Source of the DNA: Bacteroides sp.
Lineage (GTDB): Bacteria > Bacteroidota > Bacteroidia > Bacteroidales > Muribaculaceae
Assembly: GCA_014802425.1 (NCBI GenBank)
Contig: JAAVCH010000019.1
Location: forward strand, 62,001-126,000
Direction of reading: 5' to 3'
DNA: 64,000 nucleotides
Part shown: piece by piece, positions 11,628 through 45,715 of the stretch
Position numbering within the stretch: the first letter of the stretch is position 1
How the letters are laid out: the number at the start of each line of letters is the position of its first letter
Notes under the pieces: model-generated
Databases searched by the model: none
Told to the model about the DNA's origin: nothing
What the model saw: the letters and a program-made list of their open reading frames with translations, nothing else
Translations under genes and position numbers: made by a program

Positions 11628-11870
11628 ATATGGTTAAGTATTAAAGCGTTAAAAATCATTATATCCGGCTCTGCGCGGCATCGCACCGGAAGACTGACGT
11701 CTCCCTGAGTAATCTCCGGAATCACCCTGAGCCCGGCCGGTATATCTATATGACTCTCGGCAGGGCGTCGGGTTTAATGGGCCGTGTGTGTCGGCCGCAA
11801 TATTTTTTGAAAAAAAATTCACCATCCCGCAACCTTTTCTTTTCCCCCCGTGTTATAACATCGAAAGAAA

Positions 11871-11965
11871 GATAAATCGTTTCATGATGTTAGGTTAGTT
11901 TGAAAAAGTATTATGGAAAACAATGACTGCGGCCGCCTGTGAAGGTGGCCGCAGCCACTTTGTAA
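11871..11965 (+). ncRNA. Candidate small RNA, copy 1 of a two-copy element with terminator hairpin
   Basis: A 32-base stretch here (from ATCGTTTCATGATG onward) is identical to one at 45620-45651, and similarity continues for about 58 bases (AGAT-AATCG through GTATTATG to CAATGAC). The core contains the mini-ORF ATGATGTTAGGTTAG (Met-Met-Leu-Gly-stop). It is followed by a hairpin with a 10-bp stem (TGCGGCCGCC / GGTGGCCGCA, loop TGTGAA, 11928-11953) and a short T-containing tail, looking like a transcription terminator. No rightward gene follows for over 3 kb, so the element looks free-standing rather than a leader. I cannot assign it to a known RNA family. Confidence 0.5.
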
Positions 11966-12159: not shown

Positions 12160-12799
12160 TTACTTCTTCTTTCCCTGCTGAAAAATCTTCAAAATCGCCG
12201 TAGAGGGCTCCGTAACAAGTGCCGGCTCTTTTTTATTTCTTCTCTTATTATCAGATCTTCCACAAGTAACTCATAAATCCGTGGTGACTTGTCAGGGTTT
12301 TCCAGAATACGGAAAAGGTAGCAATCGCCATCTTCAGTTATATACTTTCCAATTTCATCAGGTCGACTGTATTCCACCGTCTGGTCTTCTGCATGAAGGA
12401 TAAGCCGATCAATACCATAATACTCTATACTACGCAGTGGTTTAAGCATGAGTTCTCCACCTGCATCGATGATGGGATACACATCCACCATGTCAAACAT
12501 ATAAACGACTTTATCCATTCCTACATATTCAATGCGCCATGATAAAGAATATCTTCCCACTATTCCTAAAGAGTCAAAAAGGCCGTAAGCATTTCACGAT
12601 GTGTCATCATACTGTCCTTATCGACGTACATGCCGGCCTTAAACTTGTGGCTTTCCGCTGTTTTCCTCAATAACTTATCCTGCGCGACAACATTACGTAG
12701 CTTCGTATCGACATCCCCATTAAAGCGGACACGACACGCCGTAAGCATGAATATCAGGAACAACAGTAGAACTGATACTTCAATACGATTCCGTTTCGT
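12160..12799 (-). pseudogene. Inactivated paralogue of the adjacent lipoprotein gene
   Basis: A near-full copy of the gene at 12845-13483, with most of its sequence closely matching, but broken three times. The start codon is ACG (12797-12799) where the intact copy has ATG. An A-run in the plus strand is five long (GTCAAAAAGGCC) instead of six, shifting frame in the equivalent of AFFDSLG. Near the 3' end a T-run of six replaces seven (CTCTTTTTTATT), shifting frame again before the conserved tail. The matching stop TAA is at 12160-12162. Two separate open stretches therefore remain (12189-12560 and 12566-12763). The lipoprotein cysteine (LTACRVRFNGD) and domain residues are still recognisable, so decay is recent. 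Confidence 0.9.
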
Positions 12800-12844
12800 A
12801 TGGCATATCTGATTATTATTTGTGATGGTCCTCTCCCCATTCCA

Positions 12845-13483
12845 TTACTTCTTCTTTCCCTGCTGAAAAATCTTCAAAAACGCCCTAGAGGGTTCTGTAA
12901 TAAGTGCCGGCTCTTTTTTTATTTCTTCTCTCAGTGTCAGATTTCCTACAAGCAACTCATAAATCCGTGGTGACTTGTCATGGTTTTCCGGAATACGGAA
13001 AAGGTAGCAATCGTCATCTTCAGTCACATACTCTCTTATTTCATCAGGTCTACTGTATTCCACCGTCTGGTCATCTGCATGAATGATAAGCCGATCAATC
13101 CCATGCTCACAAGGATTCAGAAGCTTAAGCATGAGTTCTCCACCAGCATCGATGATGGGATACACGTCCACCATGTCATACATGTAAACGACTTTATCCA
13201 TTCCTACATATTCAATGCGCCATGGTATCGTATATCTTCCCACTATTCCTAAAGAGTCAAAAAAGGCCATATACAATTCATCATCTGTTAGTACACTGTC
13301 CTTATCGACGTACATGCCGGCCTTAAACTTGTGGCTTTCCGCTGTTTTCCTCAATAACTTATCCTGCGCGACAACATTACGTAAATCCGTATCGACATCC
13401 CCATTAAAGCGGACACGACACGACGTAAGGATGAGTATCAGGAACAACATCAGTACCGATACTCCAATACGATTCCGTTTCAT
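12845..13483 (-). CDS. Small lipoprotein of unknown family, partner of the C10 protease
   Basis: A 212-residue predicted lipoprotein: basic start (MKRNR), hydrophobic run and lipobox ILTSC (Cys about 22). The mature part is rich in Asp, Tyr and Val and includes MDKVVYMYDMVDVYPIID and HDKSPRIYELL; I do not recognise a family. The tail is strongly basic (KIFQQGKKK). Its start lies just 6 bases after the stop of the C10 protease gene, so the two are almost certainly co-transcribed. Small proteins encoded beside C10 proteases in Bacteroides include staphostatin-like inhibitors, so an inhibitor or chaperone role is possible, but sequence alone does not show it. Codon use is AT-richer than the surrounding genes. 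Confidence 0.75.
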   Translation of the reverse strand: MKRNRIGVSVLMLFLILILTSCRVRFNGDVDTDLRNVVAQDKLLRKTAESHKFKAGMYVDKDSVLTDDELYMAFFDSLGIVGRYTIPWRIEYVGMDKVVYMYDMVDVYPIIDAGGELMLKLLNPCEHGIDRLIIHADDQTVEYSRPDEIREYVTEDDDCYLFRIPENHDKSPRIYELLVGNLTLREEIKKEPALITEPSRAFLKIFQQGKKK

Positions 13484-43108: not shown

Positions 43109-43280
43109 CCTTTCACTTCCGCATGCCTTTCCTCACAAGGAGAAGCGCCATGCGTCCACAGGAGACACCTGCTTTTCCACCGGAGGGTGGAAAACCGGGA
43201 TTATTGTTCCCCCCAACCCAATCAATCAGTTCTTAATCAAAGAAACTCGTTACGTTTAAGTTAAATATGGTAGAATGCAA

Positions 43281-43310
43281 GTCGGGACGCAGTGATGCGT
43301 CCCGGCTTTT
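43281..43310 (+). terminator. Intrinsic terminator, probably of asparaginase
   Basis: An 11-bp stem GTCGGGACGCA / TGCGTCCCGGC with loop GTGA, followed by TTTT. Confidence 0.8.
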
Positions 43311-43414
43311 CTATCTATCATATTTTTCTCTCTACTTCATACTTATCCTCCATTCTTCACATTCATTCTTATCCTTCATTTTTATCATTGTCCTTCATAC
43401 TTATCATTAACCCT

Positions 43415-45457: not shown

Positions 45458-45614
45458 AGACGTTGGTTTGAAAGTTAAAGGTGTTTTTATGGTATTTCAC
45501 TGATAAATGGTCGGATTTTCAAATATTTACATCAGAAAAAAACGGATGGACGAAAAAATTTTCCTGTCAATCGTGAACCATCCTCCACTCCACTATGTTT
45601 TATAGATGAAAAGA

Positions 45615-45715
45615 AGATAGATCGTTTCATGATGTTAGGTTAGTTTGAAAAAAGTATTATGAAAAGCACAATGACAGCGGCCACTTGCGAAAGCGGCCGC
45701 TGTCGCTTTTATTGC
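45615..45715 (+). ncRNA. Candidate small RNA, copy 2 of the two-copy element
   Basis: The core is nearly identical to the element at 11871 (32 identical bases from ATCGTTTCATGATG onward; about 58 bases aligned with only a few changes), including the Met-Met-Leu-Gly mini-ORF. The hairpin here differs in sequence but keeps its design: GACAGCGGCC / GGCCGCTGTC at 45673-45704, with inner CTT/AAG pairs and loop GCGA, followed by GCTTTT. The hairpin overlaps the end of asd, which is convergent, so it may stop both transcripts. Upstream GTTTTATAGATG aligns with GTTATAACATCG of copy 1, suggesting conserved promoter sequence. No rightward gene follows for almost 5 kb. Confidence 0.5.

Follow-up and report, generated by a model that had tools for sequence, protein, structure and literature searches.

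A multicopy family of putative small RNAs in a Muribaculaceae genus with a FopS-like build and a PM2-like promoter motif

The closest described systems are two small RNAs (sRNAs) of Bacteroides, FopS and GibS. According to PMC11697453, FopS is multicopy and combines a seed in a single-stranded 5′ region with a terminator hairpin; it binds susC start regions and blocks translation by pairing, and the protein RbpB binds FopS and antagonises its action. GibS is described as about 145 nt long with two seeds (R1 and R2) and middle hairpins. Its transcription in B. thetaiotaomicron is driven by PM2, a second, near-palindromic promoter motif with −10 and −30 parts that is enriched at oxidative-stress genes and distinct from the EcfO motif (PMC7366714), and a later paper describes a TGTT element near −10 that matches PM2 (PMC12596196).

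Two intergenic loci in the stretch of DNA analysed here (64 kb, hereafter the window) resemble these systems in design. Both are probably copies of a multicopy sRNA family of a Muribaculaceae genus, with a FopS-like build, a PM2-like stress promoter and an antisense seed that would block translation of SusC-type and other glycan-use mRNAs; the literature searched, which comprised one library, held no description of this family. An earlier note on this DNA had pointed to 32 consecutive identical bases 33.7 kb apart, and these are ATCGTTTCATGATGTTAGGTTAGTTTGAAAAA at 11876-11907 and 45621-45652. When the 3-kb surroundings of the two sites are compared by BLAST, they share a single 102-bp alignment (84%) and no other at E 1e-3. 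The parts of the two copies, in window coordinates, are as follows.

11830..11862, + strand: promoter-like motif of copy 1 (CAAC, 18-nt spacing, GTTATAACATC), of the AAC-N17/18-GTT class, PM2-like
11863..11962, + strand: copy 1, putative small RNA gene; model R2 gives 101 bits at 11874-11959
11880..11900, + strand: copy 1 core of the 5′ seed, 21 nt, TTTCATGATGTTAGGTTAGTT, antisense to start-codon strings
11908..11921, + strand: copy 1 conserved GTATTATGGAAAAC segment; its ATTATGGAA and the core's TTTCATGAT could form a 9-bp helix
11927..11954, + strand: copy 1 GC-rich hairpin of 12 pairs including one G-U, with a GTGA (GNRA) loop, then CCACTTT; putative intrinsic terminator
45575..45608, + strand: promoter-like motif of copy 2 (GAAC, 18-nt spacing, GTTTTATAG), of the AAC-N17/18-GTT class
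45609..45711, + strand: copy 2, putative small RNA gene; model R2 gives 89.7 bits at 45619-45707
45625..45645, + strand: copy 2 core, 21 nt
45673..45704, + strand: copy 2 hairpin of 13 pairs and one mismatch, with a GCGA loop, then TTTT

Copy 1 would start a few bases past the −10-like box and end at the short T run. The hairpins at 11927-11954 and 45673-45704 differ in sequence and keep one design, as the earlier note had described, and its remark that both copies lie on the strand opposite to their flanking genes also agrees with what is seen at both loci. In the window, two of the neighbouring genes encode an OPT transporter and a semialdehyde dehydrogenase, and the products of the other three have no Pfam match. 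Two further observations concern the window itself. A weak R2 match at 43244-43312 (+ strand; 26.4 bits, E 0.0011), mostly hairpin, has a GTGA-loop hairpin after a degenerate 5′ part and is either a diverged relative or an ordinary terminator. A partial tandem duplication lies at 12160-13483, where the ORFs at 12189-12560 and 12845-13483 (− strand) are, by eye, closely similar over much of their length.

The element recurs throughout the genus. The genome of origin (2.79 Mb, 48 contigs) holds five full copies, so the earlier description of a two-copy element was too narrow: three more full copies lie on other contigs, beside two weaker relatives and the weak third match in the window. The weaker relatives (G000:C6:10419-10497 and G000:C26:9669-9747) match model R2 at 36.6 bits each; the first carries AAATCGTTTATGTTAGGTTTG, a seed without CATG, and no PM2-like motif was seen upstream of it by eye. 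All 61 genomes sampled from the genus, the genome of origin included, contain the element, with 1 to 14 matches per genome. Since an exact 32-mer repeat is unexpected in 64 kb and the element is in 61/61 genus genomes, chance is not a realistic explanation. The exact 21-nt core occurs in at least 118 stretches of GTDB genomes, and the 80 core matches listed come from records labelled Muribaculaceae, Muribaculum, Porphyromonadaceae, Bacteroidales, Bacteroides sp. or unnamed bacterium, nearly all of them metagenome-assembled genomes. Across an order-wide sample of 198 genomes, three of them from the same family, model R2 under strict filters matched the genome of origin only (1/198).

The copies lie at unrelated intergenic loci, and this bears on two alternatives to an sRNA gene. 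Among 89 distinct copies, taken from 80 of the at least 118 GTDB stretches, 88 have no overlap with any ORF of at least 120 aa. One alternative is that the element serves an adjacent gene as a cis-acting leader, an attenuator or a plain terminator. On the opposite strand, the semialdehyde dehydrogenase gene has its stop codon directly against the hairpin of copy 2, which could also terminate that gene. However, the family has no fixed neighbour: where a downstream ORF is present (76 copies) it is on the opposite strand in 50/76 and on the same strand in 26/76, and the neighbours of the copies in the genome of origin look unrelated. By reading, two of the other loci there have neighbours that include DEAD-box helicase-like and transporter-like ORFs, and at the locus on contig C20 no neighbour was recognised. 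We therefore consider a cis-acting role highly improbable.

A small mobile or repetitive DNA element with a hairpin, of REP or MITE-like type, could account for a copy number of 1 to 14 per genome, for tandem arrays of three cores in two stretches (L183 and L142, with spacings of about 135 nt and 149 nt) and for the 20-nt core found on one viral contig of the IMG/VR set (L093-L113). Against this, BLAST among the five copies of the genome of origin returned only alignments of 54 to 107 bp, covering element and promoter, plus one inverted 34-bp match, so that their flanks share nothing past the element; the hairpins differ and covary rather than being copied, and the promoter motif is held at fixed spacing. 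No transposase was recognised among the neighbours looked at, most of them judged without a family search, the element had no match in phage and plasmid collections at E 0.01, and a 24-nt exact pattern was absent from viral contigs. We regard mobility as a very unlikely explanation. Comparison of the copies shows that intergenic loci which are otherwise unrelated have three parts in common: a promoter-like motif, a conserved 5′ segment and a hairpin that covaries and mostly has a GNRA cap. Each of these supports the earlier proposal of a free-standing sRNA gene family.

A promoter-like motif precedes nearly every copy. AAC-N17/18-GTT is found upstream of 146/158 copies (shuffled mean 7.0), usually followed by ATAA and mostly 19-29 nt before the core, a spacing that would place the core near the 5′ end of the RNA. 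The TAnnTTTG box of canonical sigma-ABfr promoters is present in 1/158 upstreams (last 45 nt before the core). We infer that AAC-N17/18-GTT, which is near-palindromic, belongs to the PM2 class, to which it is likened by published description. The motif of copy 1 (G000:C19:73830-73862, window 11830-11862) has two mismatches to the extended promoter pattern. In the genome of origin the extended motif, at three mismatches or fewer, has 31 matches, two of which are sRNA copies, versus 8 for the reversed pattern. Seven matches precede genes with products that match GrpE, RbfA, rubrerythrin, CrcB, Fe/Mn-SOD, a glyoxalase and Clp_N and that lie 16 to 130 nt downstream, and those beyond the sRNA copies and these seven genes are unassigned or may be chance. 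One exact match to the extended motif (L242, G000:C18:9351-9383, − strand) is followed, over about 270 nt, by no ORF that reaches 60 aa and may mark another, unrelated sRNA gene.

The 5′ core and the hairpin are both conserved, in different ways. The 21-nt core, TTTCATGATGTTAGGTTAGTT, is invariant in 31 aligned copies (alignment A2), partly by selection, since A2 was assembled from BLAST matches that passed a core pattern tolerating up to 6 errors; 4 of 35 distinct sequences were left out of it as incomplete or containing N. The larger sets of 89, 158 and 159 copies were picked by the exact 20- or 21-nt core, and core invariance there is by construction. The hairpin varies in sequence and keeps its pairing. 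The earlier note had predicted covarying hairpins for intergenic relatives, and in 50 sequences (alignment A3) there are changes on both sides at 12/12 pairs, so that all 12 covary; 88% of the cells are paired. Taken over the whole structure, covariation scores 0.399, compared with 0.158 for shuffles and no more than 0.120 when the structure is slid. A3 holds 50 of 110 references, themselves thinned from 159, and keeps about nine rows in which MAFFT shifted the loop. A GNRA tetraloop caps the hairpin in 138/159 copies. The T residues that follow it average 4.3 in 10 nt, in a count in which the stem finder missed some copies; the T run is short in many copies, and copy 1 has only CCACTTTG. The hairpin is a putative terminator.

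A conserved segment downstream of the core might gate the seed. ATTATGGAA and TTTCATGAT of the core could form a helix with 98% of cells paired, and as there is hardly any variation, and none on both sides, this helix has no covariation support. The core pairs with ATTATGGAA in the minimum-free-energy structure of 4/6 sequences, a set in which the 3′ hairpin is truncated in some stretches, and copies that lack the ATTATGGAA segment exist in the alignment. Pairing of this kind might mask or gate the seed. RNAalifold included a seed helix in model R1; as the pairs of this helix hardly ever vary, it counts here as a prediction. A small peptide was also considered and rejected on reading the alignment: the 4 codons of ATGATGTTAGGTTAG owe their constancy to the core alone, and past ATTATGGAA the frame is not the same from copy to copy.

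The window copies are related to FopS in build and distinct from it in sequence. An Rfam search, which the earlier note had suggested, returned only a tRNA over the 64-kb window; in the surroundings of copy 1, with E up to 10, it gave two matches far below their thresholds. For the two window copies neither RF04319 (FopS) nor RF04182 (GibS) gave a match at E up to 10. RF04319, whose gathering threshold is 56 bits, has three matches in the genome of origin, and among these are two true FopS genes (L281 and L282), both with a TAnnTTTG box.

G000:C9:14069-14140, − strand: true FopS, 77.8 bits to RF04319
G000:C4:80753-80819, + strand: true FopS, 67.6 bits to RF04319

The same model matches seven given loci from Bacteroides, Parabacteroides, Phocaeicola, Prevotella and a phage at 68.7-82.3 bits. 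The FopS seed in matched loci is TTTTTCATGGTATTAGATTTAAGG or close to it, and the window core is TTTCATGATGTTAGGTTAGTT; the two align as TTTCATG[G/A]T[A/G]TTAG[A/G]TT over the first 17 nt, with three purine exchanges relative to FopS, and then diverge. The layout and this alignment invite the simpler reading that the window copies are plain FopS (or GibS) genes of this species. Model R2 also weakly matches 8/12 FopS-type or sister loci (20.4 to 10.9 bits, E 0.005 to 0.46), and in sister genera (L074 and L091) the FopS seed stands behind the window-type promoter motif, at 50.3 and 47.3 bits to RF04319, below 56. Yet the true FopS genes of the same genome are matched where the window copies are not, and the promoter class differs, which makes this reading unlikely. 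Two observations concern FopS on viral DNA: the FopS-type core is on 19 stretches of the viral contigs, not all with a hairpin after it, and the copy in Bacteroides phage BX-TP2 (L117) passes the Rfam FopS threshold.

Related loci in sister genera carry other seeds. Model R1 matches 37/149 genomes of the family, in 15/30 genera with the genus of origin included. Outside the genus, 15 of 21 inspected loci (8 genera) have a seed that we call type B, AATGTGATAATGATTGG, two have the FopS seed, and four (L077, L082, L085, L086) have none of the three seeds as spelled. All 17 seed-bearing sister loci have AAC-N17/18-GTT upstream; as model R1 includes promoter and hairpin, the sister loci share these parts partly by selection. 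Independent support for a common chassis is thus confined to the conservation of the type B seed and to second copies in four loci (L075, L080, L088 and L090). Tentatively, and with somewhat less than even confidence, we propose that genera of this bacterial family share an exchangeable chassis, in which a PM2-like stress promoter and a GNRA-capped terminator are kept and the 5′ antisense seed is rewritten, each genus tuning the stress shutdown of SusC-type transporters in parallel to FopS. The type B seed is also present on one viral contig.

The core is antisense to translation starts. It is complementary to start-codon strings (CTAACATCATGAAACGAT) and contains the reverse complement of CTAACATCATGAAA. 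Paired with 34 SusC start regions, the seed reaches a mean of −14.98 kcal/mol (single regions −8.7 to −21.8), and 60 dinucleotide-shuffled seeds on the same regions average −9.3 (sd 0.85; 0/60 as low). The set of 34 comprises 28 loci (L330-L357) and 6 of the 15 loci of the genome of origin; L050, whose start region is the same as that of L049, and the partial matches L055-L062 were omitted, and L343 and L357 were kept though their starts look wrong. The seed also prefers SusC over 300 background genes (AUC 0.671 versus 0.453, sd 0.066, for controls, 0/60 as high), in a comparison whose background held one antisense sRNA artefact (−42.6). The background was sampled from 450 genes with starts picked by rule, some of which will be wrong. 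With the artefact removed, the AUC is 0.717 for ATGAA starts only (25 versus 206 genes; controls 0.484, 0/60 as high), and when only the 5′ leader is considered, SusC is less strongly preferred (AUC 0.605, 1/60 controls as high).

Much of this pairing signal is common to start regions and to the seed class, and pairing with SusC is moderate and scattered. Background start regions also pair better with the seed than with shuffles (0/60 as low), in part because ATGAAA starts are common. On the same SusC leaders the FopS-type seed reaches −13.22 (0/60 shuffles as low; AUC 0.637, 3/60 as high) and the type B seed −13.07 (0/60 shuffles as low; AUC 0.648, 1/60 as high), so the extra specificity of the window seed is modest.

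Single sites near the full complement point to glycan-use genes as candidate targets. In the genome of origin, the only non-family site for the 18-nt seed complement at one mismatch or fewer is a start codon, at G000:C47:35900; it starts an ORF of at least 504 residues that is not SusC and of which the 300 residues submitted had no Pfam match. The genus yielded 24 near-complementary sites for inspection. An ORF longer than 100 aa begins at 13 of them, and these ORFs include SusC, GH97 (two genomes), a GH31-like protein, a CarbopepD_reg/plug-like protein and rhamnose mutarotase (three genomes); 9/24 start no ORF of more than 50 aa and 2/24 are inside an apparent longer gene. For a 17-nt variant of the seed complement, the matches listed in the genus are mostly sRNA copies themselves, and the excess of seed complements over the reversed pattern was for this reason set aside as evidence.

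A different use of the core would be as the site of an RNA-binding protein, the RNA titrating that protein rather than pairing with mRNA. A long conserved core and many copies would suit such a sponge, and Bacteroides FopS is bound by RbpB (PMC11697453). Complementarity to start codons above controls argues against it. So does a search for RRM_1, the RbpB domain and the one domain covered, which had no match in the genome of origin or in the other two genomes of the same family in the order sample and is present in 142/198 genomes of that sample. RbpB, the usual RRM partner, thus seems to be absent from the genome of origin, as judged from its sequence. By a hand count, 28 of 43 genomes with RF04319 matches are among the RRM_1 genomes and 15 are not, so it is not unusual for FopS to occur where RRM proteins do not. 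Overall we regard a sponge as improbable. As the whole 21-nt core is conserved beyond the need of a short seed, it may bind a protein as well.

The most likely reading of these loci is a new multicopy family of sRNAs, of the same kind as FopS and GibS, that represses SusC-type and other glycan-use mRNAs in a stress-linked way. From their pattern we infer transcription, stress induction, a translation block and the identity of the targets. A stress-type (PM2-like) promoter would drive transcription of an RNA of about 95-105 nt that starts 5′ of AAATCGTTTCATG. As an antisense seed, its 5′ segment would pair with the surroundings of start codons (ATG AAA CGA-type and SusC leaders) and so keep translation from initiating, chiefly on mRNAs for SusC-type outer-membrane transporters and also on those of other glycan-use genes. 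The several copies would sum to a dose, and the RNA would work alongside the genome's true FopS genes with a different promoter, a different seed and no RRM-type RbpB partner.

Muribaculaceae are abundant in mice. In the papers examined, post-transcriptional control of glycan uptake depends on a few Bacteroides sRNAs. If our reading is right, Muribaculaceae would be another gut lineage with such control, there exerted by an RNA that has a different seed and a stress-type promoter and lacks an RRM partner. The family would then offer a natural experiment in the joint change of sRNA seeds and their targets.

Three known systems frame this proposal. Like FopS, the window family is multicopy and short, with a 5′ seed followed by a terminator-type hairpin and a seed antisense to start-codon regions; SusC-type targets are known for FopS and predicted here. 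Unlike FopS, it has a PM2-like instead of a TAnnTTTG promoter, a longer hairpin and no RRM_1 protein found in its genome. With GibS, which has a PM2 promoter, it shares a motif that resembles PM2 by description, and the 5′ seed of GibS likewise binds translation starts; the window units, in contrast, measure about 95-105 nt and have a single conserved 5′ segment. The sigma-E dependent RybB and MicA of enterobacteria are stress-promoter sRNAs that lower outer-membrane protein synthesis and depend on Hfq. They are unrelated in sequence and belong to another phylum, but their stress-promoter role is comparable to the one proposed for the family described here.
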